DNA of 58,837 bases. Source: a virus. The position numbers and the translations under genes are program-made. The notes under the pieces are model-generated. The model was not told the DNA's origin. It did not search any database and saw nothing but the letters and a program-made list of their open reading frames with translations. Of this stretch, positions 9,618-43,459 are shown piece by piece. Location of the stretch: IMG/VR virus record IMGVR_UViG_3300045119_000159, positions 1-58,837 of that record, one strand, 5' to 3'. Each line of letters opens with the position of its first letter. The stretch's first letter is position 1.

Positions 9618-9664
9618 TCTGCCCATCCACGCCCATGATACCGAACCGCATTTGGAGAGTTCCA

Positions 9665-11744: not shown

Positions 11745-11854
11745 AGCAGATACCTGAGAGCCTTTCCTAGATCCCAGAGGGCTTCGCCGAAGAACCAGAC
11801 AAATGTGCCGCCCATTATGGCTCCAGCGGTCAAATATCCGGCGGCACGTCTCAC
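11741..11854 (-). CDS. Tiny membrane peptide between endolysin and holin-like gene
   Basis: 37 residues. GTG 11854 overlaps the endolysin stop (GTGA) and its own stop overlaps the next ATG (ATGA), so it is locked into the coupled lysis operon. It contains one hydrophobic helix (LTAGAIMGGTFVWFFGEALW) with a positive N-terminus and could be an antiholin or accessory holin subunit. Too short to classify. Confidence 0.6.
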   Translation of the reverse strand: MRRAAGYLTAGAIMGGTFVWFFGEALWDLGKALRYLL

Positions 11855-12507
11855 GCTGCCTTACCACTGAGGTCGGCGATCGTCCGCTCGATGTCTGCGG
11901 TATGGTCGCGCAATAGCTGCGCCACCAAGTCAGCGACAGGCTTTGTCATGGTTACAGTAACCATGCTGGTAGCTGGTACGGGCGTCGGCGTGACAACAGG
12001 CGTCGGGTCTGGCATGGGAACTCCGGGTTGTGGCGCAGCCTTGTATCCGGTGAGCGCGCGGTTTGCCCATTGCAGCCGCCGGTCATTGCCGGGCAGAAAC
12101 GTATCGGTGGTGCCGCCGGGAGCCTCGAACATGACGCCAAATGTGAACACGGCTGAATCGAGCGCCGTGGTCTTTTTCAGTTGCTCAAGGTCGTGCGCGT
12201 GGCTGGTGCGTAGTTCGTTTACGAGGTAGCCGTAATTTGCCTCGTCGGAACGCTGGTCGAGCTTCTGTGCGGCGCACCACGCCTCGAAGGCACGGCGGCG
12301 AGGACCGGTCCACTGAGCCCAACCCCACCCGCCTGATGGCGGCGTCTGCCCAACCTCTTGAAGCGTCTCGAAACCTGAACTCTCAAATCCGAGGTTGCCG
12401 ACGATGCCGGCGGCTTGCTCTGGCGTAAGACCAAACTCTTTGATCAGCGCGCCGACAACCCAGCCGCCACGCACCTCAAAGGAAGCGGGACGCGGCGGCA
12501 TATCCAT
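11851..12507 (-). CDS. Endolysin, phage tail lysozyme type
   Basis: 218 residues. The N-terminal 140 or so residues match the phage_tail_lysozyme fold: VVGALIKEFGLTPEQAAGIV, GNLGFESSGF with the likely catalytic Glu, PPSGGWGWAQWTGPRRRAFE, and later GVMFEAPGG. The C-terminal 60 residues are Pro/Val/Thr-rich and probably a linker plus a helix. ATG 12507 follows the LysM gene stop by 1 bp. No signal peptide is seen, so release should depend on the holin-like protein. It presumably cuts glycan strands of peptidoglycan. Confidence 0.85.
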   Translation of the reverse strand: MDMPPRPASFEVRGGWVVGALIKEFGLTPEQAAGIVGNLGFESSGFETLQEVGQTPPSGGWGWAQWTGPRRRAFEAWCAAQKLDQRSDEANYGYLVNELRTSHAHDLEQLKKTTALDSAVFTFGVMFEAPGGTTDTFLPGNDRRLQWANRALTGYKAAPQPGVPMPDPTPVVTPTPVPATSMVTVTMTKPVADLVAQLLRDHTADIERTIADLSGKAA

Positions 12508-12508
12508 C

Positions 12509-12751
12509 TCAGTAGACCCACTCCAAAGGAATCTTGACGATCTGCCCCACATAGATCCGGTCTTTGTCCTTGATGTCAGGATTCAGTTCCAGGATCTCAC
12601 CCACCCTGCTAGCCACCTCATCGGCAGGGCATTCAGTCATTCCCTGAGCGATTGCAGATAGCGTATCGCCCTTTCGGATGACCACAGTGGCAGCATCCTT
12701 GTCAGCGGCAATGATGTGCGCCCATTCGAGAACTTCGTGAAAGAAACTCAT
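12509..12751 (-). CDS. LysM-domain protein
   Basis: 80 residues with one LysM: VVIRKGDTLSAIAQGMTECP, then GEILELNPDIKDKDRIYVGQ and IVKIPLEW. LysM binds N-acetylglucosamine in peptidoglycan. ATG 12751 has a strong GGGAGG site. In many phages the LysM is fused to the endolysin; here it is a separate gene directly upstream of it, so it may act in trans as a wall-binding partner, or be a virion protein. Confidence 0.85.
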   Translation of the reverse strand: MSFFHEVLEWAHIIAADKDAATVVIRKGDTLSAIAQGMTECPADEVASRVGEILELNPDIKDKDRIYVGQIVKIPLEWVY

Positions 12752-13181: not shown

Positions 13182-13841
13182 TTAGACGTGGACCCTACGC
13201 CTGAAAACGTTGGCAAACAATCCTACCAGCGCGATCAGCACCCCGATCGCGAGAACAACCCACCCGAACATTTCATTCTGTCCCACGCTCTTACCAGAGA
13301 GGTCAGCCCTCGACTGAACGAGGGTCTTGACATCCTGCAACAGCGCGGCCAGAGCCGGATCGGCGGCGCTAGAGCGGCCTCGCGTCTCATTGGCGTACTG
13401 CTCCAACTTGGTCACTCGTTCCGACATATCACGGGCGTTCTGGTCTATCTTCAGTCCAAGGTCCGTCTTCAGTTCTTTCAGTTGGCTCGCCAGCAGCAAT
13501 GTCGATGAATCCTGGTTCGCCCGAATGACACGGGCCAGTTCCAGGTCGAACGTCAGCTTCTGCGCCGCGAGTTGGTCGATGCGACGTGTCTCGGCGTCGC
13601 GCGCCGCGTTCTGGAACCTGGTATCAGCGTCTCTAATTTCTATGTATCGTTTGGTTACTTCGGCAGCGAGATCATCGATACGTTTGACTGCGGCGATGAC
13701 GAGATCGAGAACGTTCTTGGTCGGGTCGATGGTTTGGTTACCATGCGAATCGACAGGTATGCCGGGCGCTGGCTGGGGGTATTGCCCCCACGCGGGACCG
13801 ATCAGAAGCGCAAGGACAATGAGTATGCGGGCCAGCATCAT
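13182..13841 (-). CDS. Exported coiled-coil protein with C-terminal membrane anchor
   Basis: 219 residues. Signal-like N-terminus (MMLARILIVLALLIGPAWGQ), a long charged helical stretch with heptad character (VIAAVKRIDDLAAEVTKRYI ... DQLAAQKLTFDLELARVI ... MSERVTKLEQYANETRG), then a C-terminal membrane helix (FGWVVLAIGVLIALVGLFAN) and basic tail. The bulk of the chain would therefore lie in the periplasm with the C-terminus anchored in the inner membrane. First gene of the lysis cassette; a spanin-like or envelope-disrupting role is plausible, not proven. Confidence 0.7.
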   Translation of the reverse strand: MMLARILIVLALLIGPAWGQYPQPAPGIPVDSHGNQTIDPTKNVLDLVIAAVKRIDDLAAEVTKRYIEIRDADTRFQNAARDAETRRIDQLAAQKLTFDLELARVIRANQDSSTLLLASQLKELKTDLGLKIDQNARDMSERVTKLEQYANETRGRSSAADPALAALLQDVKTLVQSRADLSGKSVGQNEMFGWVVLAIGVLIALVGLFANVFRRRVHV

Positions 13842-13860
13842 TCGCCCCTCAAGCAGCCAA

Positions 13861-14112
13861 TCATTCCTTGTTGACCGCCTCGATCCGCTCCGCTTCAATC
13901 TCTTTTATGCGGTCGGAAATGGTGTCAGCATCATCAGCGGCCATCTCGCGCAGCTTTGGTTCAGGCTTCGGCTTTTCGTGATCGTGATCGTCGCGCTCAA
14001 CGCATTGACGCTCGCCAAAATCATTGCCATTGTTCGGCCCCGGTACAGCGCCGCAGTAAAGGCAGCGCCCTCCCGGACCACGCGCCTCGCTATGCTCACG
14101 CACCTTTGCCAT
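13861..14112 (-). CDS. Small zinc-ribbon-like protein
   Basis: 83 residues with one CLYCGAVPG knuckle and another Cys later (RQCVERDDHDHEKPK), then an acidic coiled-coil tail (DTISDRIKEIEAERIEAV). ATG 14112 has GGGAGGG upstream. It opens the lysis operon downstream of the signal-peptide cluster; no known function. Confidence 0.65.
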   Translation of the reverse strand: MAKVREHSEARGPGGRCLYCGAVPGPNNGNDFGERQCVERDDHDHEKPKPEPKLREMAADDADTISDRIKEIEAERIEAVNKE

Positions 14113-14140: not shown

Positions 14141-14299
14141 ATGAATATCGATCTGACAAAAGAGGAACTAGAGCGCATCTGCAAGCGGGTCAGGCACCGG
14201 GCGCGCGACGAGTTGGACTACCGGATCATCTCCAGGCTTGAGGTGCGCCTTGAGAACTTCTCCGACACGGAAGACGCCGCCTCAATGCACCATCGCTGA
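14141..14299 (+). CDS. Possible 52-residue charged helical protein
   Basis: Plus-strand frame divergent from the zinc-ribbon gene and convergent with the 1672-residue gene. GGAGAG precedes ATG 14141. The product is a charged helix (TKEELERICKRVRHRARDEL ... ISRLEVRLENF). No family; evidence is the frame and the ribosome-binding site. Confidence 0.45.
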   Translation: MNIDLTKEELERICKRVRHRARDELDYRIISRLEVRLENFSDTEDAASMHHR

Positions 14300-17200
14300 G
14301 ATTGGCGCTGACGACGAGGGCGGCGGAGTACTGCACCCGCTGCCACCAAACGTCGTCTGAAAGGCATTTTTCGGACCAGCTTGGTAATACGCCCCAAGCG
14401 AGCTGTAACCAAAGTATGTTTGATAGTAATTCCACCTCGCATCAGCCTTCGCCATGACAGGTGCCATGCCGGTAACGCAACTAGCCAGCATTGCGTTCAT
14501 CGCGCCATGTCCGCTTGTGAGATATCCTTGTGGACCAGGATAATCAACCCAATACCCGATGGGCGCGTTGGCAGGCACGGAGTAGAAATCATAGATACCG
14601 GGGTGCGATGGATCTGACGTGTCAGTAGTATCGACGGCAGTTCCGCCACGCGTCGTCGCCAGATTGAACGAGTTGTAGTTCCCCTTGATCGAGGCAACAC
14701 CAGGATCAACGGCTATCGGGCAGGTAAAATGCGTTCCATCGGTAATGGTACAGGTGAGATTAACTCCTCCGATCCCGGCAGGGGAGCTACCGATGGCCGA
14801 ATTGCCGCTGATGCCGACCTTTCTGGTTCCGGACATGCCGTGCGCGGAACAGGTCTGAAACGTCTCCGTTCCTGATGACCAACTCATGCCGCAGATCGTG
14901 CCTGCGTGCATGTTGACGGCGTAGTACGCCTGGTGGACCTGCAATCCTCCCGGTGCCTTACTATTATTGAAACCTACAAAAGATACCCAATTGAACTTGT
15001 CGCCGTTGGCTGGGTTCCATGACTGGCCGCCAGGGGTTTGCCCCCCATACACGCTGTAGTCCGAGACCCCAAGAGCAAATGTTCCCGGCGAACCTGTCAA
15101 CCATTCTATCGGATGCGCTCCAACATCGGTCGCTATTCCACCATAGTAGTCGTCCGAGTCGATCGGGTTACTTATTATGTTAAATGAGCCGCTCGCCGGA
15201 CTAGCAGAGGCAACCTGCGGGAACGTAGCCGTAGTTGGACCCGTCCGCGTTAGAGTGACCGGCGTATTGGTATAGCCTGCTATTTGCGGTGTACCAGTCT
15301 CGCCCGTGAACATATTATCGCCACCGGTCTGTGTCAGGGTAGCTATGCCCCCAGCCCAAGTGGCGTTGACGCTTAAGAGACCGCCCCCAATGTTGTTGGT
15401 ATCGTAGGTTGATTCTCCGATAGCATACAGCGGATAATCAGTCCCAAACGTCGAGACGATATGCTGCCAGAACGTACTCTGACAGTTCATCAAAGTGAGA
15501 GCGTTGGCATCCTCATCATTGTTGTAGGCGTTCACCAGAACATTCATCATGTAGAACTGGTGGAACTGCCCACGATTGGTCCCGGTTGCCGTGTCCCATA
15601 AGCAGTTCGTGGCCGCGTAGCTATTTTGAAACGGGATGGCAGCGACAGGAAGAGCCGTGGATGCCTGCTGTTGGGCATGAAGATACGCCCCGATCTGTGT
15701 ACCTGCCGGATCGCTGTCAGGCCACCACGCATCGGCATCAGTGAGAGCGCGAAGGCTCCACGCCTGGAGCCGCATCCCCCAGCCGCTTATGTATGTGACG
15801 ACTCCGTAATAATCACTACCGTGAAACCCGATGGCGTTCCGATCTGTCGGGATCTGCCCAGAAATCGCATGGTTAGCGAACTCCATAGCCAGATCGAGAT
15901 ACTGCGGCTCACCTGTCATCAGATAAGCGCAGCTCGCGATGTCAGGCATATGTGAGAAGTCGGAGGTCCACGCATAGCGCGTTGCCAGACCGTGCGCGGG
16001 CGCGGTGAAACCCGACTGCCGCAGAACCTCGCCACCCCACTGAACCGTAGTTGCCGTTGAAGCTGGCATTCCGGTGTAAGAGTTGGCCGGATTACCAAGA
16101 TGAACTGGCCCGCGCGTCGCGAAGTCCCGCATATTAATCGAGAAGTTATTGGCCGATAGACCTATGCTCCGAATGGTCTTGTCATCGTTCAGGCTATGGT
16201 TATAGAAGGCCCGTGCACACCACGTAGTCCGGACCCCGATGCTGTCCCGCTCCCCCCCCTGGTTGAGTTGCTTTAGATATGGACCCTTCGACATATTGTT
16301 ATAGGCCAGGGTTCCGCCAGTGCCAGACCAAGTGCTGGGGTTTGGATCAGGAGGTGGCGATAGACTCATATTGTAGGGAGGCCAGACGTGTGTTGACTGG
16401 TCATAGGTAGGGTTGCCCTTGACGATGATCGGCGCGTCCGTCGCGGCTGTTCCCGGCACGTAGGCGTAGCGACCATCTGCCCCGGCAGTCCACAGCGTCC
16501 CAAAGTGCGGCAGCAACAACATCGGCTGAAAGGTAAAGGTGCCAGTCCCGCCATCGACGTTGCTTGGTAAATCACCCATATTACAAGTACTGAACTGCAT
16601 CCCCGTTGGGAAACTCTCGATGCAATAGACCGTGTTCGTCGAGAGGCCAGTGGGCAACGAGCCGCCGCCATTCGGGAACACATATCCCGTCAGCATGCAT
16701 TGCTGCGTGTCACCGCCACAATCGTTGTACGAGGCTGGTGTCGTTGTGGTCCAGGACCAACTGCCGATCCAGTTCGACGCAGTAATTGTCAGCGGGTTCG
16801 AGCCCTGTGGGAACGGCGGCGTAATCGTGGTCGGGCCAGCGCCATACTGGATGTTGAACGCCGAGAGACCGCGCCAATCCTTCGCTGGCGTGTCGTGGTT
16901 GTACCAAGGCTGCGTTAGGCGTCCGAGCACTCGATAGCCTGCCACACCACCACTCGCATCGAGAACCTGCTGGACGTACCAGTAGACTTCCATCTGCCCA
17001 TGTGCGGTGCCCGACTGCTCCACATGCGTCAGGATGCGATAGACCCTTCCACCCCCACCGTCGCCGTAATTGACCACCTCAACGTTGCGGGCATCGTTGG
17101 CGAGCTTCGCGTCCCAGCTTCCGGTCAGGCCGAAACTCGCTCCTTGACCTGTGATGTTCATCTGAATCAGCGCAGCGTAGAGCTGTGTCGGCGTTAGGCC

Positions 17201-19300
17201 CGAGGCCGCCGGGGCAGACCCGCCGTTGAACACGTTCGCGCTGACACACGCCACCGGAACCGCCTTCGGGAACGGCCCCGGCAGCACCCCCGCCATCTTC
17301 ATCGTGCCGTCAGACCAGTGCCGGATGTTGATAAAGGTCGCGGGCCACGGTGTCCCATCCAACGCCTGGAGTTGTGGGTACTGCCCCGCCGGGATGTCAC
17401 CCTTCTTGAACTCCAGCGGGAACATCGGCGGCGAGGGCGTGTTCGCCGTGACCGTGGAGCCGGAGGTCGAGCAGAGACTGATCGTGTTGACCACCGCTCC
17501 GGGTGCGCCAGCGCGGAACTGCGCCGGGCCAAGATCGAAGGTTGGAGAACGGGTTGACCCGAACATATCCTTCGTATTGTTTAAGTTCATTGAGGGGAAG
17601 CCGAATGCACTTTGCACATAACTAACCCCCAACCCACGTACAGGACTGCCCGCCACCAGCCGGGGATTGGTCGCCGCATCCACGAACGTCGCCGCCGCGC
17701 TCTGACTGAATAAGCTACTCGCTCCGCCAAATACCTGTCCAGTGAGGGCGACTGAAAGATATGGATCGGTGAAACTGGGGTTCGTGCTGGAGTTGGGCAG
17801 ATCGGTGGCGTTGTTGCTGGTCTGCCCCGTATTCCAGGTCGCAAAACAAGGAGTGTTTATGGCGACCTGATTTACCCAGCCGAAATACAGACTGTTGTTG
17901 AATGCCTTGGTAGCGCTGGACGTTCCCTGCACGTCGCCACACAGCGAAATATGCGCCGTTCTGTTGGCCCCGCTACCAAGCGAGATGTACGTCGTGTTGT
18001 AAACGAACCCGTTATATTTCCAGTAACTACCCGACGCGCCGACCGCATTGCTGCGATTGATGATGAGGTTGTTTCCGGATGTATTATATGCGTCCGCTCC
18101 GAAGGTGGTTGGACCGTCGCTGTCGAGGATCGAATTAGTCGCATTCTGTGAGTTATTGTGGCACCCCTCTAATCCACCGAAAGCAGGACTTGTCCCTCCT
18201 GTCGATTTGAGTTGCAGCCCGTCGAGCCAGACAAAGGTGTCGCAGCCAAAAACCGCGTCCTGGCCCACTCCGAGAATAGTGACTCCTTTGGTCTGATCTA
18301 TCGCGAGCGGATCGCTGGAGGCTAGATTATCCCGGAAGCTCTCACCCGCTGCCGGCACGATACGCACAGTCTGGTTGTCAAATCCAAACCCGCAGCCGGT
18401 CGTGTCCATCGTCTGACTGATAGTGCCAATGCAGAAGTTGGCATTGTCACCGACACGAGAGCTATGATAGTTGACACTTATCGGATTGGCCTCGTCTCCA
18501 ACACCGCCAGTATATGTTTGGGTGGCGAATCCTCCGTGCCAGGTCGTTATTGTCATCTGCACGTTTGAAACAATCTGCGCTCCTCGCCCAACAGACGGGT
18601 CACCGATAGTCGGATAGAGACTCTGTAGTTGATGTGGCAAGGCGCTGGCATGGGTGGCGTCCGAGGTATAGGGGATCTTGGCAACCGCGACCCAAGAACA
18701 ACCGCCGTCTGCCACAGATGAACCTGGAGTTGTCGGGCCAGGACCACTCGATGCCGCCACACATTTGAACGGTGCCGAGCCAGAATTAAACACATGCCCG
18801 CACACTCCGAAAACGTTGGTGTCCCAATAGCACTGCCGCCAAGCCCACCCGGCATTGACGACGATCTGCTCCTGCCAGTAGCACCCTGGCTGCGGGTTGC
18901 TGTCGTTCGTACAGGTGCCAACATTAGGTTGCCACTGTACTGGATCGTCCCACAGCGGCGAACTGAGCGTGATGTAATCGACCTTGACCAGACATTTCCA
19001 AGTTGCACCCCCATCAGTTATTCCGGTGCTCGGGCAGGACGAGATCGTCGGCTGGCTGCCGGCGCTGGTTCCTGCTGTCGTCAGTTCCAGCAGATATAAG
19101 GCCGAGCCATTGGTGTAGGCGGGAGTTCCACCCGGCGTCAGGCCCGGCCCAGCCAGTACGCGATCCCCTAGATGCCCGACATGGGTGTAGCTATGCGATG
19201 ACTGCCACGCAGGCGCGTTGGCGACGTTGAAGCTATAGGTGAAGGCGAGAGCCGGCGATGCACCGAGCGCGAACAGCAGTGCCAGGATGATACGCTTCAT
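14282..19300 (-). CDS. Giant secreted receptor-binding/depolymerase-like protein (1672 residues)
   Basis: Signal peptide MKRIILALLFALGASPALAF at the N-terminus. Residues of about 25-600 look like a beta-rich, possibly right-handed beta-helix region with many spaced cysteines (SSCPSTGITDGGATWKC; GTCTNDSNPQPGCYW). Residues of about 1090-1330 resemble the (alpha/alpha) toroid of polysaccharide lyases and related enzymes (SDFSHMPDIASCAYLMTGEP ... GWGMRLQAWSLRALTDAD). The C-terminus is variable and Gly/Ser/Pro-rich. It is the last gene of seven with signal peptides and is directly coupled to the previous one. It could be the main host-glycan-binding or -cleaving fibre, or a truly secreted depolymerase. 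No catalytic site can be assigned by eye. Confidence 0.75.
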   Translation of the reverse strand: MKRIILALLFALGASPALAFTYSFNVANAPAWQSSHSYTHVGHLGDRVLAGPGLTPGGTPAYTNGSALYLLELTTAGTSAGSQPTISSCPSTGITDGGATWKCLVKVDYITLSSPLWDDPVQWQPNVGTCTNDSNPQPGCYWQEQIVVNAGWAWRQCYWDTNVFGVCGHVFNSGSAPFKCVAASSGPGPTTPGSSVADGGCSWVAVAKIPYTSDATHASALPHQLQSLYPTIGDPSVGRGAQIVSNVQMTITTWHGGFATQTYTGGVGDEANPISVNYHSSRVGDNANFCIGTISQTMDTTGCGFGFDNQTVRIVPAAGESFRDNLASSDPLAIDQTKGVTILGVGQDAVFGCDTFVWLDGLQLKSTGGTSPAFGGLEGCHNNSQNATNSILDSDGPTTFGADAYNTSGNNLIINRSNAVGASGSYWKYNGFVYNTTYISLGSGANRTAHISLCGDVQGTSSATKAFNNSLYFGWVNQVAINTPCFATWNTGQTSNNATDLPNSSTNPSFTDPYLSVALTGQVFGGASSLFSQSAAATFVDAATNPRLVAGSPVRGLGVSYVQSAFGFPSMNLNNTKDMFGSTRSPTFDLGPAQFRAGAPGAVVNTISLCSTSGSTVTANTPSPPMFPLEFKKGDIPAGQYPQLQALDGTPWPATFINIRHWSDGTMKMAGVLPGPFPKAVPVACVSANVFNGGSAPAASGLTPTQLYAALIQMNITGQGASFGLTGSWDAKLANDARNVEVVNYGDGGGGRVYRILTHVEQSGTAHGQMEVYWYVQQVLDASGGVAGYRVLGRLTQPWYNHDTPAKDWRGLSAFNIQYGAGPTTITPPFPQGSNPLTITASNWIGSWSWTTTTPASYNDCGGDTQQCMLTGYVFPNGGGSLPTGLSTNTVYCIESFPTGMQFSTCNMGDLPSNVDGGTGTFTFQPMLLLPHFGTLWTAGADGRYAYVPGTAATDAPIIVKGNPTYDQSTHVWPPYNMSLSPPPDPNPSTWSGTGGTLAYNNMSKGPYLKQLNQGGERDSIGVRTTWCARAFYNHSLNDDKTIRSIGLSANNFSINMRDFATRGPVHLGNPANSYTGMPASTATTVQWGGEVLRQSGFTAPAHGLATRYAWTSDFSHMPDIASCAYLMTGEPQYLDLAMEFANHAISGQIPTDRNAIGFHGSDYYGVVTYISGWGMRLQAWSLRALTDADAWWPDSDPAGTQIGAYLHAQQQASTALPVAAIPFQNSYAATNCLWDTATGTNRGQFHQFYMMNVLVNAYNNDEDANALTLMNCQSTFWQHIVSTFGTDYPLYAIGESTYDTNNIGGGLLSVNATWAGGIATLTQTGGDNMFTGETGTPQIAGYTNTPVTLTRTGPTTATFPQVASASPASGSFNIISNPIDSDDYYGGIATDVGAHPIEWLTGSPGTFALGVSDYSVYGGQTPGGQSWNPANGDKFNWVSFVGFNNSKAPGGLQVHQAYYAVNMHAGTICGMSWSSGTETFQTCSAHGMSGTRKVGISGNSAIGSSPAGIGGVNLTCTITDGTHFTCPIAVDPGVASIKGNYNSFNLATTRGGTAVDTTDTSDPSHPGIYDFYSVPANAPIGYWVDYPGPQGYLTSGHGAMNAMLASCVTGMAPVMAKADARWNYYQTYFGYSSLGAYYQAGPKNAFQTTFGGSGCSTPPPSSSAPISAMVH

Positions 19301-19866
19301 TATTTGGTTCCCAAGACCGCAGTTGCGCTAGTGGTGCCGTTGGGGTTGGTACACGTCAGCTTGAACGACGTTATTCCGGGCGGGGGGGTAAACGATTGAA
19401 TGCCAAACTTGGAGCCGCCTGTAGTGAAATTATCCCCCGTGCAATTGTCGGCGTTATCAGTCATCCAGAATGCGGTTGCGGGTGGTGACTCTACTCTGAA
19501 CCCAAGGATGACGGGTAGCGGTGTCGGTGGAGACGAAAGCGGAGGCGGGTTCTGCAGCCCCGGATCGCTCGTCATAGCCCATGCAGCTCCGGTGAGCACC
19601 CACCACTGACTGTATGTGTTGAGGACGTACATCTTGCCGCCGTTGGCGACTTCGAGTTTAACGCCAGCCCCGCCCGCAGCAGGCAGCTGGTTATTGAGCA
19701 TGATGACGTTGCCGCCATTGGCGACGGCGGTGCCGAATGTCCAGGTTCCCGCCGCAGTAACGAGGTGGCCCCCACTAGCAACCGTGATGGTCGTGCCGTC
19801 AGGAGAGTTCTGTGCCCATGCCGAAACCGGCAGCAGCAGTAGTAAGGCTAAGAGTAGCTTTCTCAT
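19300..19866 (-). CDS. Secreted fibre-associated protein, signal peptide
   Basis: 188 residues: signal peptide MRKLLLALLLLLPVSAWAQ, then beta-rich repeats (GTTITVASGGHLVTAAGTWT; VANGGKMYVLNTYSQWWVL) and a C-terminal Ig-like segment with one Cys pair (DNCTGDN; KLTCTNPNG). The stop overlaps the start of the 1672-residue gene. Possibly a small fibre or adaptor; no enzyme motif. Confidence 0.72.
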   Translation of the reverse strand: MRKLLLALLLLLPVSAWAQNSPDGTTITVASGGHLVTAAGTWTFGTAVANGGNVIMLNNQLPAAGGAGVKLEVANGGKMYVLNTYSQWWVLTGAAWAMTSDPGLQNPPPLSSPPTPLPVILGFRVESPPATAFWMTDNADNCTGDNFTTGGSKFGIQSFTPPPGITSFKLTCTNPNGTTSATAVLGTK

Positions 19867-19876
19867 GTGGTGCATC

Positions 19877-20839
19877 CTAATACCCGCCATTCGTCCGCAT
19901 GTTGCTGGTGAGCGCCGCCCCGCTGGACGAGGTGTCGGCAGTGTAAACCGCCATTTGGAGAAAGCTGGCCGTCAGCGTTCGAGCGGAGGAGTCATTGCAT
20001 ATATTCAAACCTAAACTAGAGAAAGCAACATTTGTACCGACCGTCCCGGTGGCGGTTGATCCATTGATCGACATAGTGCCCGTCCCGCCACTCACTGGTT
20101 GAGTGCCGATCATCGAGTAGAACGTTCCGACACTGACGGCCGGTGGGGCGACGAGAGTCGTTCCGGCGTTGTAGATTGCGTCTATGGTGGCGTTGGAGAA
20201 GCCGAGAGTCGGACCTGGGGACGCCGCATCAAAGGCTGGCCCCGCACTCATCAATGGGCCGTAAACACCAGCAGTCGAAACATCGACCCTTACCGCTGCA
20301 AGCATCGAGGTGGGTTGGGCGTTGCCTGGAAAGTCACCGTTGGCTGTGTGTGTTGTTCCAGTACATTTGAGGGCGGGAATAGTCCCGATAGCATTGGGGA
20401 TAAAATAAAGATACTTGCCCGTGGCCGATACCATATTACAAAGAACTGTGCCGCCGCCACAGTAATTCCCCGCACTACCATCAGTATACGCGATATGAAC
20501 CAAGCAGGCATCCACCCCCGGCGTCGAACCGCAGGGATTGCCTCCTCGCGTCTGCGTGCTTGACACGATACCGGTCGTTGCGTCTGATACCGCGTCGGCG
20601 CAGTTGCCCTCGGCGGTATCGCACAGGTTGAGCATCGCCTGGCCGCGTGTGGCGGCGCTACAAGCAATCGTGCCCCAACAACCCTTGGCCCCAGGCAGCA
20701 CATCTAGGATGCCCTGGAAGCCACCACCGCCACCGCCACCGCCCTTGGTCCCCGGACCCGGCCACGGCATTCCAACTTGGGCCAGCGCGATCCCAATTGG
20801 CAATAAAACGGCAGCGATTGTGAGAAGTATTCTCCTCAT
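19877..20839 (-). CDS. Secreted cysteine-rich fibre-like protein
   Basis: 320 residues: signal peptide MRRILLTIAAVLLPIGIALA, a Gly-rich hinge (eight Gly in a row near residue 35), then a beta-rich domain with ten cysteines in close pairs (GCWGTIAC; NLCDTAEGNC; PCGSTPGVDAC), as in disulfide-bonded extracellular proteins. The ATG overlaps the preceding stop by 4 bp. The C-terminal half resembles phage fibre beta-sandwiches with no enzyme signature. Likely a receptor-binding or fibre-cap protein. Confidence 0.72.
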   Translation of the reverse strand: MRRILLTIAAVLLPIGIALAQVGMPWPGPGTKGGGGGGGGFQGILDVLPGAKGCWGTIACSAATRGQAMLNLCDTAEGNCADAVSDATTGIVSSTQTRGGNPCGSTPGVDACLVHIAYTDGSAGNYCGGGTVLCNMVSATGKYLYFIPNAIGTIPALKCTGTTHTANGDFPGNAQPTSMLAAVRVDVSTAGVYGPLMSAGPAFDAASPGPTLGFSNATIDAIYNAGTTLVAPPAVSVGTFYSMIGTQPVSGGTGTMSINGSTATGTVGTNVAFSSLGLNICNDSSARTLTASFLQMAVYTADTSSSGAALTSNMRTNGGY

Positions 20840-21564
20840 CGAACGACCCGCCAGTTAAGTGTGATAGCGCCAGGGGTCACTGAGGAACTCGTGTTGTTAC
20901 AAACCTTGAAATTTACGTTGTTTGAGGTCGGATAAGCGATGATGGTCAGCATCCCCGCTGTCGCTGGGATGTACCCGGTGACTCCTGTTGGATCGCCATT
21001 GAACGATGCCACGACAACATCGGTCGATGCAGCGCCAGTGGCCGACGTGGTGACGACCGTCGCGCAGGTGGCGGAGGTTATCGCGCCAGTGCCGAGAGCG
21101 GATGTCCCAGATGCTACTACCGCCGAACTAGGGGCACCCAAACTCAAATCTACCGTTACGGTGGAGCTGCCGGCAGCCGTCGCGAGCGCTCGCCCGATGA
21201 CCTGTGAAGAGGCGGGACGGGTTGCCCCCGCATCATGGCAGGCACCAGCAGTTGTGGCTGAATTGGTAACGTAATGCCCGGCTGTGATCGCCGTGGCATC
21301 GAAGACGCAGTTGACTTTACCAATCTTGGCAACCAGCGCATTGCCAGTCGTACCTGCGCCCGCATAGACGATCCCGGCAATATCATCAACATCCGTCGTG
21401 GCGGCGATAATCGCAGTAGAGGGGGCACCGGTCAGCTTCGCCAGCTTGTTGATAGTGGTGCCGGTGCCGGCCTCGTTAGCAATGTCAATAACAGCTTGCG
21501 CCATCGCCGGAGTGGCGGAAAGCAGCGCTCCAACCAGGAGCGCCCCGAGTAGTTTAATTTTCAT
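20836..21564 (-). CDS. Secreted fibre/decoration-like protein
   Basis: 242 residues: signal peptide MKIKLLGALLVGALLSATPA, then a beta-rich domain (KLTGAPSTAIIAATTDVDDI ... GNALVAKIGKVNC). The C-terminal part (ITLNWRVVR end) is Ser/Thr/Ala-rich. Four cysteines, two near each end. Overlaps both neighbours by 4 bp. The early part resembles capsid- or tail-decoration modules of phages, but here it is exported. Confidence 0.7.
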   Translation of the reverse strand: MKIKLLGALLVGALLSATPAMAQAVIDIANEAGTGTTINKLAKLTGAPSTAIIAATTDVDDIAGIVYAGAGTTGNALVAKIGKVNCVFDATAITAGHYVTNSATTAGACHDAGATRPASSQVIGRALATAAGSSTVTVDLSLGAPSSAVVASGTSALGTGAITSATCATVVTTSATGAASTDVVVASFNGDPTGVTGYIPATAGMLTIIAYPTSNNVNFKVCNNTSSSVTPGAITLNWRVVR

Positions 21565-21749
21565 AGGTTTGCTCCTAGATTAAGAACAACGACCGTCCCG
21601 CCGTTGACCACGATTAAACCGTTCGGAGTTGGCGCAACCGTTGGCGGACCACCTACAGCGCCCACATAAAAGTAAGTGAATTGCGCCCAAGCCTGCGGAG
21701 CAGCAGAAATAGCCACCATCATGATGAGCAAAGCGATGTATCTCATCAC
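21561..21749 (-). CDS. Small secreted protein in the fibre operon
   Basis: 62 residues: signal peptide MMRYIALLIMMVAISAAPQA, then a short beta-rich mature part (FTYFYVGAVGGPPTVAPTPN; GLIVVNGGTVVVLNLGANL). ATGA overlaps on both sides. Possibly a small fibre connector or an assembly factor. Confidence 0.65.
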   Translation of the reverse strand: MMRYIALLIMMVAISAAPQAWAQFTYFYVGAVGGPPTVAPTPNGLIVVNGGTVVVLNLGANL

Positions 21750-23443
21750 AACGCGCCCTTAACTGCCATTGCGCAGTTAATCGTTGTAGTCGTGTCAGCA
21801 AAGCAAGAGATCACATCTTTGGCATTTCCGTTTGTGCTAAGGCTCGGTGCCGTGCCCCCAGCCCATTTGTAATTTGCCTGCCATGTTACTGTCCGACTGC
21901 CAACCGAGTCCTGCGTCAGAGCTACCACATAGGACTGCCCAGCCTTGACGTTTGTAGGATTGGCGACTGTTAGATTTCCCGCGCCGAAAGTTGCCGTGAC
22001 GCTATTCGATGCGCTGAAATCGGGTGTCAGCGTGCCTCCTGGGCTCTGCGCTCCACTTGCTGTAGGCGTGATCGCCTGCCCCTTTGTCCACGCTTGGCTT
22101 ACATCGAGAAAAGCGGCATCGGCGGGGGCTTGCCCGGCAACCCACGACCCGCTCAGGCTTCCAAACCCAAGCTGGACACAATTAAGGTTGTTTATGTCGA
22201 GGGAATTGAAGACTTGATTTGTGGCGCAGGCTTTGGCCGCAAGCGCAGAACTGCTCTCGACCGTCCAAGTGTGTATACCAGAGACTCGGAACACAAGCCC
22301 GACGCCCTTATTGGTATAAGGCCCAACGCTCGCTACGTTGCCTCCGGTGCCAACGATCCCTCCTGCACTATCCGCCGCATTTACCGCTACCGTAAGAGTG
22401 GCGCTCCCGCCGACAAACCCACCATCGGCAATCGAGATTGCCGTATCCGTACTGACTGCCGTGATCGCCGGCAGCGTCAGCGTCCCGGTCGTCCACCCCG
22501 ACGCAACCTTGACTAATCGTGTGGCGTTGGCGATAGCCGCTGTGCCGGTGACGGCCTGTGGACTTGTCTGCCCGTCCACACCGAAACCTGGACCGCCGCC
22601 ACCACCTCCTGTCCCATTCGATGCGGCAGTGATGCGTCCTTTTTGATCGATGGTTGCATTGAGATTGGTATAGCTGCCAGGAGTGACTGCCGTGCTCGCA
22701 AGGCTCATCGGAGCCGTACCGCCACTGCCGTTCGTGGTAACGAGATCGGAACCGAGCAGGCTTAAGGTCGTTGTGCTAGTCTGGGTGCGCGTACCGTCCG
22801 TGACTGCGGCAATGCCCCCGACAATCAGTATATTAGCGCAGGTAGTCGCCCGTCCTTTTGCGTCATAGGTACATTGTGGGACATGAGTGGAATCGCCGTA
22901 GGTTCCTGGGGTGGCATTCGCCGCAGCCAATGACATTGGCGCGGTGCCACCAGAACCGTTTGTTGTGACAAAATCGGCCGCTGTCAGACTAAGGGTCGTT
23001 GCGCTAGTCTGGATGTGCGTTCCATCCGTGACTGCGGCAATGCCACCGCCGCCGGCACCTGAGATGAGGACATTTGTGCAGACGGTAGCGCGCCCTTTCG
23101 CATCAAACGTACACTGCGGAACATGGGTTGCATCGCCATAACTCCCGGCACCAACGCCGGATATCGAGAGCGTGAAAGGGGTCGAGCCGGTCCCGGCTGC
23201 CGTACCGTCCCCGGTCAGCGCAGTGATGCCACCACCGCCACCGCCACCACCCAGCGCCGACGCAAGGATATTGACCGTGGCACCGCCGCGTATCAGCATA
23301 ATCATATCGTTGGTCTGGGTACTTGAGACCACCGGTCGGCCCGCGAAATAACTAAGGAATTTCGACGTGAGCGTCGTCTGTGCATAAGCGACTGTTGACG
23401 CAATGAGCAACCCAGCGAAGACTGGCAGGATGAACCGCTTCAT
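21746..23443 (-). CDS. Secreted tail-fibre protein with repeated modules
   Basis: 565 residues: signal peptide MKRFILPVFAGLLIASTVAYA, then from about residue 70 repeats of the phage fibre type (GSYGDATHVPQCTFDAKGRA; GTYGDSTHVPQCTYDAKGRA; GSYTNLNATIDQKGRITAA). In the first two repeats the usual PQ-x-T-x-DA-x-GR hairpin carries two cysteines, eight to ten residues apart, placed to form a cross-strand disulfide. The C-terminal half is a beta-sandwich of fibre-knob type with further Cys. Eight cysteines in all. It is coupled to both neighbours. Very likely a host-recognition fibre; the signal peptide is the surprising part. Confidence 0.8.
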   Translation of the reverse strand: MKRFILPVFAGLLIASTVAYAQTTLTSKFLSYFAGRPVVSSTQTNDMIMLIRGGATVNILASALGGGGGGGGITALTGDGTAAGTGSTPFTLSISGVGAGSYGDATHVPQCTFDAKGRATVCTNVLISGAGGGGIAAVTDGTHIQTSATTLSLTAADFVTTNGSGGTAPMSLAAANATPGTYGDSTHVPQCTYDAKGRATTCANILIVGGIAAVTDGTRTQTSTTTLSLLGSDLVTTNGSGGTAPMSLASTAVTPGSYTNLNATIDQKGRITAASNGTGGGGGGPGFGVDGQTSPQAVTGTAAIANATRLVKVASGWTTGTLTLPAITAVSTDTAISIADGGFVGGSATLTVAVNAADSAGGIVGTGGNVASVGPYTNKGVGLVFRVSGIHTWTVESSSALAAKACATNQVFNSLDINNLNCVQLGFGSLSGSWVAGQAPADAAFLDVSQAWTKGQAITPTASGAQSPGGTLTPDFSASNSVTATFGAGNLTVANPTNVKAGQSYVVALTQDSVGSRTVTWQANYKWAGGTAPSLSTNGNAKDVISCFADTTTTINCAMAVKGAL

Positions 23444-23444
23444 A

Positions 23445-23795
23445 CTATTGGTTCCGAACCGGAATGCGGTTGATCACAACGTAAACCGCCGTTGCAGTGG
23501 TGATGGCGAGGCGATAGCGCCCCGAAGGCAGGTAGGCGGTTGAGTACCCGGCGGCGGTAATGGGCGCTGCGGCCTGCACATAGGTCGAGCTATCGCCCGC
23601 CAGCTTTTGCAACGTGATATTGCCGGCGCTGAAAGTCGCGACGGCATCGATCCCATACAACCCTCCCGACAGCCTGAACTCGGCAGTCGTGGCAGAAATG
23701 TTGGTCGCGACATATTCTTCATCTGCCCATGCCGGAACGGAGACGCTCAGCAGGACAATAAAAAAGACGGCCAAAAGCCGCCCGACATGAGGCAT
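23445..23795 (-). CDS. Secreted small virion-associated protein
   Basis: 116 residues: signal peptide MPHVGRLLAVFFIVLLSVSV-PAWA, then a beta-rich domain (EYVATNISATTAEFRLSGGL; FSAGNITLQKLAGDSSTYVQ; YLPSGRYRLAITTATAVYVV), the layout of small phage decoration or fibre-cap beta-barrels. First gene of the signal-peptide cluster, divergent from the plus-strand lipoprotein gene 30 bp away. Confidence 0.7.
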   Translation of the reverse strand: MPHVGRLLAVFFIVLLSVSVPAWADEEYVATNISATTAEFRLSGGLYGIDAVATFSAGNITLQKLAGDSSTYVQAAAPITAAGYSTAYLPSGRYRLAITTATAVYVVINRIPVRNQ

Positions 23796-23825: not shown

Positions 23826-24095
23826 GTGAAAGCGTTAGTAATGATCCTTAGCGTCGTCAGTTTGTTGACGGCTTGCGGCCACAAGAACGTCCTCTGGCAT
23901 CCGCCTGAAGGGACGGCTGGCCGGCAATACAATCAAGATCGGCTCGTCTGTCGTGGTGTCGCTGACTATCCGGCGAGTGCTGTCCCAGGCGGTGGATTAG
24001 GCGGCTTGCTGATGAATGCCGGCGCGGCTCAAGAGGCGCAGACCAGCTACATCAATTGCATGATGGCCGCCGGTTATACGCCGGAGTATCGCTAG
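23826..24095 (+). CDS. Small lipoprotein, probable moron gene
   Basis: 89 residues. GTG 23826 gives a perfect lipoprotein signal (MKALVMILSVVSLLTAC, lipobox LTAC), then a polar domain with CRGVADYPASAVPGGGLGG and a final CMMAAGYTPEYR that resembles small bacterial envelope lipoproteins. A GAGGCG site precedes it. It is a plus-strand gene inside the minus-strand virion operon, overlapping the stop of the 1623-residue gene by 4 bp, so it must use its own promoter. Such morons often alter receptors or exclude other phages; that role is inferred. Confidence 0.72.
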   Translation: MKALVMILSVVSLLTACGHKNVLWHPPEGTAGRQYNQDRLVCRGVADYPASAVPGGGLGGLLMNAGAAQEAQTSYINCMMAAGYTPEYR

Positions 24096-27000
24096 TGAGC
24101 CTTCAGCATTTCCAGCTTCTGCTTGTGGCTGGCACCCTCGCGGTAGGCTCGCTGCGCCGCGCGCGCGGCTTCGCCGATATCGAGGTTCTGGTGCAGGATC
24201 AGGGCGCGGGCCTGCTTGCGTGACGCTTCGATTGTCTTGGTAATCACGTCGCGCTGCGAGGCTTCCGGCAGGTTCGTGAAATTCGCGCCGCCGACGATGT
24301 TGTCGAGCCGCATCTTCATCAGTCGCCCGGCAGTCTGCGTCAGCTCGTAATATTGCTGGTCATTCAGCCCCACACCGTCGATCTTGCGGGTAATCGGCGC
24401 AACCGGGATGTCCAGCCGGATCAAAGCGTTTGTCACGGGATCGTTGACCACAGCCGAGGGGCCGACCATCGTGTGCTGGGTGATCGGCTCGCCATAGATG
24501 TCGTTGCGCGTTTCGAGGGTCTGTCGCAGAACCGGGATCTTGTTTTTGACCGCATCGGTAAAAGAATGAACTTCACGCTGGTAGGGGTCAATTAACTGCG
24601 CCATCTGCCCCATGCCGATCGCGAAGGGCACAAAATCCGCGCCTAGATTGCGTAGATAGCGTCCGCCATCCTTATCCCAATTGCGTGCGGCGTTGATGAA
24701 ATCCGACAGGCCGCGCAGCCAAGTCTCGTCAGCCACCACTTGCGAGAACCCGAAGATCGCAGCCGAAGCTGCCTGCGCATATTCGCCGGTTCCGGCGGTG
24801 TGCGCGACCTCATACATATTGGCAACGCCGCCAACCAGCGCACCGAGAGGGCCAATGAGCTTGCGGTAGGGATAATAGTGGTCGCCGATCCTGATGCTAT
24901 AGGGCTTCCAGCCAGTCAACTCCAAACGCATCCGTTCCCTCGGATCTGAGGGACCGCTGCCGGTCAGGATCTGTTCCGCCGTCAACCCAATCACGGCGGT
25001 GCTGAGCATAACGCCAGAGGCAATCTTGCCGTATTGCAGGCTCTGCGCGACGGTGCCGTTGCGGCCACGCAGGTAATCCAGCATGGGGGTAGCTAAGAGG
25101 TTATTGCGCGCCGCTGTCGAGGCAAAGGCCAGCGGAGTGTGCTGAACGAATGCTTGGTCGAGGATGTTCGCGCCGATCTGCATGAACGGCATGACCGTCT
25201 TCGCGACGACATTGTTGTTGACGGCGCGCTGGATATTGGACATCGCAGAATTGAAGGCCGGGCGCTTCATCAGCACCATCGCCAGCGCCTCGTTGTGCGC
25301 GTGCTCGATGGCTTCCATCGGTGGGTTCTGGGTGAACTCGGCAACGTGCGCGTTATACGCCTCGCCCGTCAACTTGTTACTGATGGCAGACCGCACCGCG
25401 AGACGGGCGATTTCCTGCTCATACCCCATCGAATAGAATAGCGTATGGATCGCCGTCACAGCCCGCGAGGGGGTTTCCAGTACATAGCCCACCCTGCCGG
25501 GGATCGCCTGCGGCCGGGAGATGGCCTGCGCCGCGTTGGGCAGTTCGACACCCTCGGCAGCCTTCGTGATCAGCTCGGCACCCTTCATGTACGGGACGCC
25601 GGTTTTCAGGGCTTCGCCAGCAGCGCCCCATCCATCGCGCCAACCGCGCACCGCGCCATAGAGCTGCGCTGGCACTTCGGCCCACTGGACCCGATTGTCG
25701 AGCGGTTTGCCAGCGATCATCTCGCGGAAGCTGTCGATCGCTGCGGACGCGCTGGTGTCCGCAACCGCCTTAAACAGCGCCAGGTTGGTATTGCCGACTG
25801 CGTAGCCGCCGTGCGTGATCGGCCCCGAAATCAAGTTGTTGATGAAATAAGAGAGGTAGGCGGCGCGAATCTTCTGCCAGCGGGTCGCCCGCGTTTCGCC
25901 GATAAAGTCGGCGCGGGCGTCAGCGCTCGGCAATGCCTGCGACAGGTCGCGTTCCTGGGTCAGTTGGTCGAGCGTGCGGCCAGTGATCTTCTTGACGTAA
26001 TCGGCGACCGACTGGCCGGCGGCGATCCGGTCGATACGCTGGAAGGCATGCCCGGCGCGGCCCCAGCCAGCCTTGATCTCGCTATATAGCTCAGCCGCCA
26101 TCAATAGCTGCTGGCTGGTGCGCGCGTAGGCTACGGCGTCCGCTTCCGAGCCGCTGTCCGCCCATTTGGTGCCGGCCTCGACGGTCGCCTGGGAAATATC
26201 CTCGACTAACAGTCGAGCGGCTCGGGCGTCGTGATAAAGCTGATAAGCGGCCTGACCGAAACGCGCATCGCGGAAATCCTGCGTCCGCGCCGACATTTCC
26301 AGAATGATGCTCTTGGCGTCCTGGGTCGTGTTGAGGCGGTGAATCCAGGCGGTGCGGACCTCGCCTACGCGGCTGGCGGCAGGTCCGGAGGTGTCTGGTC
26401 CTGCGTCGGCGCTTCGCCGCTGTTCAGATAGTCGATTGCCTTCTGCCGCAGCGTTACCTCCGCCCTCGCCGACCGAGCGAGGTTCCGATACCCGGCCCGC
26501 TGGTGCGGCATTAGGTTCTCCCGTAGGGCTGCTTGGTCCAGAAACGTTGCCTCCCGCTGCGCCTCCGCCATCCTCAGACGGTGCTCTGCCGCTGACTCGC
26601 TCATCTTCGATCTCCGGGTGTGCTGCTTCCCCTACGCTATCACGTTCCGTCCGCACCAGGGGCGCAATTTCTCCGGCTTGCGGAGGAGGCGTCGTTGCAG
26701 CGTCGGCTTCATGCAGATCGGCAAATGTGCCTGTCGGTTCCCGTTCCGGCGCGATGACGGGCCTTTCCTTGCCCGTCGATAACATCCGGTCGAACACGCC
26801 CCGGATATCGTCGTTGATTGGCGCGCGGAGGCGAGTAACAGTCTCGTATATCTTTGTCAGCCAGTCTTTGAACTGCTCGAAAACCCGCGCCAATCCGGTT
26901 GACGGAGCGTGACCCTCCATCATGTAGCGCTCAAACCCACGGGCGAATTTCTCGTGGGCACGAGTCGGGATGGCCTCGCCCTCGGCGACGCCAAGCCAAT

Positions 27001-28963
27001 TCCGCACGGTCGCCATGTCGGTTTTCAGATCCGGCGGAGCGCGCTCGTCAATGGCGTCCTTAGCCAACTCCTCAAGCCAAGCGTGACCCGTCTCATGGAT
27101 GAAGGTCGAGGCGTCAGCGTCTTTGAAAAGGGTGATTTCGGCCCTAGCGTCCTTCTCGGGATCAGCTAATCGGATTTTACCTCGTCGGGTTTGGGCGAAT
27201 TCTCGGGCTGGCTCTGCGGTTGCGGTGCCGCTGGCTTCTTCGATTTGGGCACGAACGCCACGCCCGGCGCGGATCGTTGGTGCCTCAGCTCGATAGAGAT
27301 CCTCTGCCGACCCCAGCGCACCGCCAAACCGCTCCGCCCGCGCCTCGTAATGCGCCTGGACAAGAGCGCCGGCAGCGTTCGCTTCCTCGACAGGACGGCC
27401 AGCCGCGACGAGTTGGCGGCTCACGTCGCCCGTAATGCCGCCTGGGATTGGCTCGGCTGGCGGCGTTGGTGCTGCGGCTTGGGCCTCCCTAAGAGCAATC
27501 CCCTCAAGTCGTCCCGCATTTTGGCCGACGCCCATATCGGCCCCTAATTCCGTCGCCCTTGTTTCGCTTAGGATTTTGCGCTCACGCTCATTGAGCAGCG
27601 CCAGCGCTTCTTCGCGTGTGTAGAATTTTCCGGTCTCGTCAGCAAATCCAGGCTCCCCGAATTGCTCTTTCGCAATTAGATCAGAATGCAACTCTCCAGG
27701 TTCGCCGATGTGAATTTTGCCAGTGCTGCTTATGTTTGCCACTCTAAGACGGGGAAGAGCAGGGACAGGCGGCGCTACAGGGGCCGGTTCAGGTGTCGGG
27801 GCTACCTCAGGTGCCGCCGGGGCTTCAGGGGCACCAGCGGGCTCCGCTGCGGCTTCCGGCAACTCTCCCGCTTCGGCTCGCCGATAGGCCGCCGATACCT
27901 CCGGCGCGAGGTCGCGCATCTGGTAGTCAAGTTCCTGTCGCGCCTGCCGAAGCCGGGCCATCTCCGGCGTGTCGCCTTCCTTCGGAAGCGCGTCGGCGAG
28001 AGAGGCCCGTTGCGTTTCCAGAGCCGTGATCTGGTTGGCTAGTCCCGCCCGATCGCCCCGCGCTGCCTCTAGCCTTTGGGCGCGCAATTGCTCGATCTGG
28101 CTGTCAAGCGCGGTAATTTCGGATGAGGTGCCCTTGTCGCGCTGCTCGGCGAGATCGTTGATGAAGCCGGTCAACGTTTGCTTATGGGCCGCCAGTTCGT
28201 CATAAACCGAAAACGTATCCGGCGCGATCTGGCGGGCGATGGCGTGAAGGTCTGGCGCGGGAGCAGAGCGCTCGGCAACCGCCGCCGCTCCAGTCGCCGC
28301 AATATCGGCATCACTCGTTGCCGCAGGCTCTGCGGTGCCTTCCCAATTCGGGTTAGCTGTCGGCGACACAACACGCTCGGTCGGCTCCTCGACCCCGGAA
28401 GGCGTCAATTCGAGACGGGCACGCGCGGATGCCGCAAGATCCTCTGCTGTAATTGGCACGGCCGCAGGCGGGGGTCTGACAGGGACGCGGGTCGGAAAGC
28501 CGGTCATATGCCCCGCCGGGAACGCTTCCATGCCCGCAGCAATCGGCCCGAGCACCGGAGCCTCGACGGCAGCCTCGTGAACAGCGCCCGGCAAGCGACT
28601 GAACAGGATATCGGCACCAGCTATGGCGGGGCGCAGCAACCCCTCGTTGAACCTCCGGATGATGCTGTTCTGGCCCTTCTCGTAATCGTTGAAGATGCCC
28701 CAATCCTTGAGGTTGCGCTCGGTTTCCGGGGATAATTCCGCCGAACCGCCCCAACCCTTGGGCAAGCCATAGCGCAACGCTGAACCGACCGAATCTGCGA
28801 AAGGCGGCTTGATCCACGAATTGCCAAGATCGTCGCCGGTCGGTCGCTTGTTCAGGATCTCGTCGAGTGTCGGCGGTTTTGGCGGCGCACCGAGGATCTG
28901 GTCGAGCGTCTGCGTCTGCGATGCTGTTGAGGGCGGTATCTCGCTATAAGGAATATCCGACAT
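24092..28963 (-). CDS. Giant internal ejection protein with HExxH motif (1623 residues)
   Basis: No signal peptide and no cysteine in 1623 residues. The first 600 residues are Ala/Pro/Glu-rich with coiled coils (SEITALDSQIEQLRAQRLEA). A zinc-peptidase-like HETGH lies at residues 623-627 (STFIHETGHAWLEELAKD), followed 60-70 residues later by FARGFERYMMEG, whose Glu could be the third ligand. The C-terminal half resembles LPD38-like polyvalent-protein modules (LSYFINNLISGPITHGGYAV), with helices that could line a membrane channel. The order with the 923-residue lytic protein matches podovirus internal virion proteins that are ejected to carry DNA across the envelope. Confidence 0.78.
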   Translation of the reverse strand: MSDIPYSEIPPSTASQTQTLDQILGAPPKPPTLDEILNKRPTGDDLGNSWIKPPFADSVGSALRYGLPKGWGGSAELSPETERNLKDWGIFNDYEKGQNSIIRRFNEGLLRPAIAGADILFSRLPGAVHEAAVEAPVLGPIAAGMEAFPAGHMTGFPTRVPVRPPPAAVPITAEDLAASARARLELTPSGVEEPTERVVSPTANPNWEGTAEPAATSDADIAATGAAAVAERSAPAPDLHAIARQIAPDTFSVYDELAAHKQTLTGFINDLAEQRDKGTSSEITALDSQIEQLRAQRLEAARGDRAGLANQITALETQRASLADALPKEGDTPEMARLRQARQELDYQMRDLAPEVSAAYRRAEAGELPEAAAEPAGAPEAPAAPEVAPTPEPAPVAPPVPALPRLRVANISSTGKIHIGEPGELHSDLIAKEQFGEPGFADETGKFYTREEALALLNERERKILSETRATELGADMGVGQNAGRLEGIALREAQAAAPTPPAEPIPGGITGDVSRQLVAAGRPVEEANAAGALVQAHYEARAERFGGALGSAEDLYRAEAPTIRAGRGVRAQIEEASGTATAEPAREFAQTRRGKIRLADPEKDARAEITLFKDADASTFIHETGHAWLEELAKDAIDERAPPDLKTDMATVRNWLGVAEGEAIPTRAHEKFARGFERYMMEGHAPSTGLARVFEQFKDWLTKIYETVTRLRAPINDDIRGVFDRMLSTGKERPVIAPEREPTGTFADLHEADAATTPPPQAGEIAPLVRTERDSVGEAAHPEIEDERVSGRAPSEDGGGAAGGNVSGPSSPTGEPNAAPAGRVSEPRSVGEGGGNAAAEGNRLSEQRRSADAGPDTSGPAASRVGEVRTAWIHRLNTTQDAKSIILEMSARTQDFRDARFGQAAYQLYHDARAARLLVEDISQATVEAGTKWADSGSEADAVAYARTSQQLLMAAELYSEIKAGWGRAGHAFQRIDRIAAGQSVADYVKKITGRTLDQLTQERDLSQALPSADARADFIGETRATRWQKIRAAYLSYFINNLISGPITHGGYAVGNTNLALFKAVADTSASAAIDSFREMIAGKPLDNRVQWAEVPAQLYGAVRGWRDGWGAAGEALKTGVPYMKGAELITKAAEGVELPNAAQAISRPQAIPGRVGYVLETPSRAVTAIHTLFYSMGYEQEIARLAVRSAISNKLTGEAYNAHVAEFTQNPPMEAIEHAHNEALAMVLMKRPAFNSAMSNIQRAVNNNVVAKTVMPFMQIGANILDQAFVQHTPLAFASTAARNNLLATPMLDYLRGRNGTVAQSLQYGKIASGVMLSTAVIGLTAEQILTGSGPSDPRERMRLELTGWKPYSIRIGDHYYPYRKLIGPLGALVGGVANMYEVAHTAGTGEYAQAASAAIFGFSQVVADETWLRGLSDFINAARNWDKDGGRYLRNLGADFVPFAIGMGQMAQLIDPYQREVHSFTDAVKNKIPVLRQTLETRNDIYGEPITQHTMVGPSAVVNDPVTNALIRLDIPVAPITRKIDGVGLNDQQYYELTQTAGRLMKMRLDNIVGGANFTNLPEASQRDVITKTIEASRKQARALILHQNLDIGEAARAAQRAYREGASHKQKLEMLKAH

Positions 28964-40997: not shown

Positions 40998-41003
40998 AGG
41001 GTA

Positions 41004-42561: not shown

Positions 42562-42573
42562 AATACCCCTGCT

Positions 42574-43448: not shown

Positions 43449-43459
43449 ATCATGCCCTC

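Follow-up and report, generated by a model that had tools for sequence, protein, structure and literature searches.

A coupled operon of phage fibre-type genes with predicted Sec signal peptides suggests that fibres may be exported and join the virion at lysis

In the textbook view, tailed phages assemble their virions in the cytoplasm. Among the closest described systems are the tail fibres and tailspikes of T7 gp17 type, one of which, the tailspike Dpo31, is attached to the tail via its N-terminal domain (PMC13317679). Export is described for WceF of Pantoea stewartii, a bacterial enzyme with a tailspike fold that carries a Tat signal (PMC7949094), and a signal-bearing phage protein, Lom, is encoded between the fibre genes of lambda (PMC12309495). 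No tailed phage described as exporting its fibres was found in the open-access full-text literature, and searches of annotated phages revealed no cultured phage with such a system. Within the limits of open-access papers, this is consistent with an earlier note on the DNA analysed here, according to which no described phage is known to export a whole fibre operon.

The window, that is, the whole stretch of DNA analysed, is an IMG/VR virus record of 58.8 kb. Matches to PHROG families show a structural block of T7-like podovirus type, in which terminase, connector, capsid, tail tubular proteins A and B and internal virion proteins are all held together, followed by a lysis region:

48769-50427, terminase, large subunit (PHROG)
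45392-47080, connector (PHROG)
39283-40266, scaffold-like protein (assigned by position)
38249-39088, capsid (PHROG)
35504-37225, tail tubular protein A (PHROG)
32795-35503, tail tubular protein B (PHROG)
31734-32432, internal virion protein (PHROG)
28963-31734, internal virion/ejection protein, 923 aa (position and weak matches)
24092-28963, minus strand, large ejection (internal virion) protein, 1623 aa, no cysteine (PHROG)
13182-13898, minus strand, lysis-region protein, 238 aa, adjoining the end of the operon described below (holin/spanin-like by architecture)
11851-12552, minus strand, putative cell-wall hydrolase/endolysin, neighbouring lysis cassette (weak PHROG matches)

Between the scaffold-like and connector genes lie seven small proteins in a row without signal peptides (40278-43834), which have a decoration- or fibre-type look and could represent an alternative adsorption apparatus. 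Elsewhere in the window, a 208-aa protein (9635-10261, plus strand) combines an N-terminal signal with a sorting motif of PEP-CTERM-like type at its C-terminus (PF07589, 18.9 bits, slightly below the cut-off of 20.7); this motif suggests a host with exosortase, of which the protein is possibly a phage-encoded substrate.

The gene for the last ejection protein is followed directly by an operon of seven genes, and then by the lysis region. These seven and a spike gene next to the terminase were all found as open reading frames on the minus strand at the coordinates stated in the earlier note, and the operon genes, which it had described as tightly coupled, abut or overlap (ends/starts 19300/19300, 19877/19890, 20836/20839, 21561/21564, 21746/21749 and 23443/23445). 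For gene 6, the length of 188 aa that it gave applies from an inner Met:

23445-23795, minus strand, gene 1, 116 aa, immediately following the gene of the large ejection protein; signal peptide 23724-23795, VPAWA/DE; mature part 92 aa, no cysteine
21746-23443, minus strand, gene 2, tail fibre, 565 aa, phrog_9017; signal 23381-23443, TVAYA/QT; eight mature cysteines, as four pairs
21561-21749, minus strand, gene 3, 62 aa, GTG start; signal 21684-21749, PQAWA/QF; no cysteine
20836-21564, minus strand, gene 4, 242 aa; signal 21499-21564, TPAMA/QA; four mature cysteines
19877-20839, minus strand, gene 5, 320 aa; signal 20780-20839, GIALA/QV; ten mature cysteines
19300-19890, minus strand, gene 6, 196 aa counted from the first ATG, 188 aa if the signal-adjacent Met at 19866 is the start; signal 19813-19866, VSAWA/QN; two mature cysteines
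14282-19300, minus strand, gene 7, 1672 aa, large putative spike/depolymerase by sequence reading, without family match; signal 19244-19300, SPALA/FT; 30 mature cysteines
50447-53239, minus strand, spike, 930 aa, adjoining the terminase large subunit; signal about 53174-53239, LPSLA/FG or AFG/QG; 14 mature cysteines

A profile search matched the 565-aa protein to the tail fibre family phrog_9017 (E=9.6e-7, residues 471-551), and by tblastn its C-terminal domain (residues 470-560) is common to annotated tail fibres, which bears out its earlier identification as a tail fibre. The pectate-lyase-type domain previously proposed for the 930-aa protein was not recovered by Pfam; this protein gave just a weak match to the tail protein family phrog_14442 (E=9e-4 over 47 residues, 204-250). 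For the other six operon proteins, neither PHROG nor Pfam gave a family with a credible E-value, and their placement among fibres and spikes is a tentative one, made from locus and composition. A gp17-type tail-attachment domain was not found in the window's own proteins by PHROG, Pfam or sequence searches. Apart from the 565-aa protein, the operon proteins had no tblastn match among 50,697 phage records; scans that used the 565-aa or the 930-aa protein as a single query returned no relatives, and PDB sequence searches were empty or at chance level. AlphaFold2 models built without alignment were unusable (pLDDT 35 for the 930-aa protein and 30 for the C-terminal part of the 1672-aa protein).

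Signal peptides were scored by a rule-based scan for a basic n-region, an h-region free of charged residues and an A-x-A-type c-region. All eight proteins were accepted, with scores of 7.6-11.7, and each has the uncharged hydrophobic core, the A-x-A-type site and the lack of a lipobox Cys at +1 that characterise Sec/SPase I substrates. Only two other open reading frames of the window fall in this range, namely the PEP-CTERM-like protein and the lysis-region protein at 13182-13898, which has an N-terminal signal/anchor (counted from an internal Met) and a C-terminal TM segment. A weak score (4.0) was obtained for 43460-43834, while the terminase, portal, capsid, scaffold, tail-tube and ejection proteins of the window were all negative. 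When the first 40 residues of each protein were shuffled, the rule was passed in 0.8-12% of trials, so the acceptance of eight out of eight is not due to chance; none of 53 proteins from structural and fibre regions of named phages passed. On these two controls, chance hits and mis-called starts were rejected. The Sec signals reported earlier for the seven operon genes and the spike thus stand, and by every test available the eight N-termini appear to be real, textbook Sec/SPase I signal peptides.

It is very improbable that they are non-functional, being misplaced starts, chance resemblances or uncleaved anchors on proteins that fold in the cytoplasm. The prediction is indeed rule-based, and N-terminal anchors exist on some phage proteins, but such a reading conflicts with the coupled gene starts and the controls, as well as with two observations presented below: predicted cut sites match a homologous mature N-terminus, and cysteine pairs occur only together with a signal.

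In proteins destined for the periplasm, cysteines should preferentially come in pairs. In a first set, the number of mature cysteines was even in 23 of 24 cysteine-containing signal-bearing proteins against 106 of 235 open reading frames without a signal from the same phages (Fisher 5e-7), and in an enlarged set in 47 of 49 signal-bearing proteins; these statistics cover related proteins, so that p-values overstate independence, and the signal-bearing set is partly curated while the comparison set takes in some spurious reading frames. The signal-bearing proteins contain 1.65 cysteines per 100 residues versus 0.81 in large reading frames without a signal. One of the two odd-count exceptions is an 803-aa protein from the contig of relative L017 (L025:10629-13040, minus strand), whose KR-type, Tat-like signal would imply folding ahead of export. 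In a fibre repeat defined by the regular expression 'NAVxFNGTxG..DxG', C/C pairs occur in three of six signal-bearing and none of four signal-less occurrences, numbers too small to carry weight. In almost every phage examined, the large ejection proteins (about 550-2000 aa each) are devoid of cysteine, a single one being present in one G005 protein (the set comprised 24092-28963 and 28963-31734 of the window and the proteins of G001-G005, L020, L021, G394 and G397-G400); such avoidance is consistent with their passage across an oxidising periplasm.

The 1623-aa ejection protein was used as the query for relatives and as the anchor of the locus. A scan of IMG/VR revealed five relatives, and GTDB genomes contained two more, located in bacterial MAG contigs. 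The arrangement reappears independently in other phages. In the nearest viral contigs by ejection-protein identity, L016 (50%) and L017 (49%), signal-bearing fibre genes lie downstream of the ejection protein, as in the window; L002, L018, L019 and L020 have a gp17-like fibre without a signal at the corresponding place, L018 carrying two signal-bearing fibre-type genes at other positions. The viral contigs are linear records and possibly fragments, and gene absences are therefore uninformative. A single origin of the signal-bearing phages was looked for in the ejection-protein tree and not found, since L020, which has no signal, groups with L016, which has one. This grouping implies that signals come and go with fibre modules, and the trait thus belongs to exchangeable fibre modules instead of being essential for the virion type. 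A signal-bearing fibre of the L016 contig (L024:16325-18121) has at its C-terminus an S74 intramolecular chaperone (PF13884, E=5e-12), which serves fibres and spikes as a self-trimerising element. Inside the fibre operon of L017, a signal-bearing protein of 249 aa (L017:18268-19017) without a Pfam match reads as a small outer-membrane beta-barrel.

The 828-aa signal-bearing fibre of L017 has a predicted cut after residue 26 (STQA/TV). In tblastn searches, tail fibres of Pelagibacter phages and the Cobetia tailspike Dpo31 align with it from residue 27 (residue 25 for one phage), and in HTVC010P and Lederberg, both Pelagibacter phages, and in Carin1, the source of Dpo31, the annotated protein enters the alignment at its residue 2. 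The predicted cut coincides exactly with Met1/Thr2 of the canonical gp17-type tail-attachment domain. Only in L017 was this domain found behind a signal. Together with the parity and pairing of cysteines, the position of this cut argues that the signals work.

These relatives also bear on whether the proteins are surface or lysogenic-conversion factors, displayed on the host or its outer membrane like lambda Lom and altering adhesion or blocking superinfection. The outer-membrane-like protein of the L017 operon, the precedent of Lom between fibre genes (PMC12309495), the integrase-like gene adjoining the fibre region of L018 and the two relatives in bacterial MAG contigs would all suit such a role. 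It is nevertheless improbable, given that the window proteins showed neither a lipobox nor an autotransporter or anchoring domain and that fibre repeats, the S74 chaperone and the attachment domain are features of virions.

The segment following the signal in the 930-aa spike resembles its counterpart in a signal-bearing L016 fibre, and this homology extends to a further set of fibres recognised by the motif PGHxxxWxxNGxxxDGG, which was used as a DNA pattern for the spike core. The motif was found in ten viral contigs, in every one of which a signal stands immediately ahead of it. The contig of L016 set aside, eight of the nine lack a homologue of the ejection protein, so that most of these contigs belong to other phages. 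Relaxing the pattern brought the number of occurrences to 40: in 16 a signal directly precedes the motif, and 24 are in proteins without a signal that start within 25 residues of it; in five contigs (G394, G396, G397, G399 and L099) a short signal-less paralogue is the adjoining gene. The domain after the motif has exactly two cysteines in 12 of 12 signal-bearing versions, in the same two alignment columns in ten of them, and none in any of the six signal-less versions (p=5e-5, computed over related sequences). The N-terminal domain of the spike had no match among named phage records, and its profile (A4) was too thin for genome searches. The motif was also absent from 385 alphaproteobacterial genomes sampled evenly over the class, a weak test; on this ground, and from the location of the genes in phage structural blocks, an origin as host cargo was rejected. 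In most of the contigs G394, G396, G397, G399 and G400, the region just upstream of the signal-bearing fibres, between them and the ejection proteins, encodes a small protein that is holin-like and has hydrophobic segments at its C-terminus, which means that lysis-type and putatively exported fibre genes adjoin in a second phage group too.

Export, cleavage and oxidative folding are very probable and provide the simplest account of these sequences. Fibres, spikes and fibre accessories would be made as preproteins, exported by Sec and cut by signal peptidase I, the mature protein beginning at its functional N-terminus; they would then fold and oligomerise in the oxidising periplasm, where paired cysteines become disulfides. 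Both steps are strongly supported. In a third step, capsids with short tails and ejection proteins would be assembled in the cytoplasm minus these fibres, and once holin, endolysin and spanin open the cell, the exiting virions may acquire mature fibres in the periplasm through the N-terminal tail-attachment segments of the latter, any surplus being released as free depolymerase. A tailed virion would thus be built in two compartments, yielding disulfide-hardened adhesins and enzymes for soil. The earlier proposal of exported fibres that fold in the periplasm and either become part of virions at or after lysis or act as separate depolymerases is accordingly borne out by the graft, cysteine parity and recurrence as regards export and folding, while for the joining we rely on inference.

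Attachment to fibre-less virions during lysis is favoured on account of L017's attachment domain, the S74 chaperone, the gene position and the N-terminal motif shared with signal-less paralogues; the location of lysis genes directly after the operon was also counted in its favour. Some observations count against it. Phages with signal-bearing fibres also encode candidate structural proteins without signals (40278-43834 and the motif paralogues), which could be used for adsorption; the gp17-type domain behind a signal is confined to L017 and missing from the window proteins; and signal status switches inside the ejection-protein tree. For the whole mechanism, including attachment at lysis, a probability of roughly 0.6 is estimated.

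The main rival to virion attachment is that the proteins are secreted tools: after export and disulfide formation they would leave the cell before or during lysis and act as free depolymerases, adhesins or decoys on exopolysaccharide or neighbouring cells, with adsorption left to proteins without signals. The evidence for export and from cysteines applies equally to this reading, signal-less structural proteins are present in the same phages, the 1672-aa protein and the 803-aa protein with the Tat-like signal look enzymatic by sequence reading, and bacteria do export tailspike-fold enzymes such as WceF by a Tat signal (PMC7949094). Left unexplained, however, are the signal placed exactly ahead of a tail-attachment domain, the position of the fibre locus after the ejection proteins and the N-terminal motif shared with signal-less neighbours, and as a general account it is rather unlikely, though it could be true for some members, for example the 1672-aa protein, while others join virions.

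If the fibres are indeed completed in the periplasm and added as virions leave the cell, uncultured soil-type phages provide exceptions to the rule of cytoplasmic assembly, the Sec system, signal peptidase and Dsb enzymes of the host become phage assembly factors, and it would be understandable how phages can possess disulfide-stabilised adhesins and polysaccharide-degrading spikes; a signal combined with even cysteines would be a simple sequence sign for finding such fibres. The balance tips slightly towards a widespread, undescribed strategy, in which a set of fibres and spikes is Sec-exported, cleaved, disulfide-bonded and fitted onto the tail in the collapsing envelope, and modules toggle between cytoplasmic (Cys-poor) and exported (Cys-paired) forms via gain or loss of a signal at Met1. 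Should the proteins turn out to be free, secreted enzymes, an operon of seven coupled phage genes for putatively exported proteins of fibre type would still be new to the open-access literature searched.

Compared with known systems, the tail fibres of phrog_9017 type from Caulobacter phage S2B and the cyanophages SS120-1 and PSS2 share the C-terminal domain of the 565-aa protein, but the homologues whose N-termini were read (S2B, SS120-1, BDU-MI-1 and MEP301) have no signal. With WceF, the resemblance lies in the export of a tailspike-fold protein; it differs in being a single bacterial protein from an exopolysaccharide cluster that uses the Tat route and lies outside any phage operon. Lambda Lom, spanins and SP/SAR endolysins are likewise signal-bearing phage products, in some cases encoded next to fibre or lysis genes, and Lom has a position amid fibre genes similar to that of the outer-membrane-like protein of L017, but their roles are in the outer membrane, lysis or conversion and they are not fibres or spikes. 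The gp17-type fibres and tailspikes, such as the HTVC010P fibre and Dpo31 of Carin1, have the same N-terminal attachment domain and type of locus as the signal-bearing fibre of L017; the known members start at Met1 without a signal and their assembly is taken as cytoplasmic, whereas in L017 a predicted cleavable signal replaces Met1.
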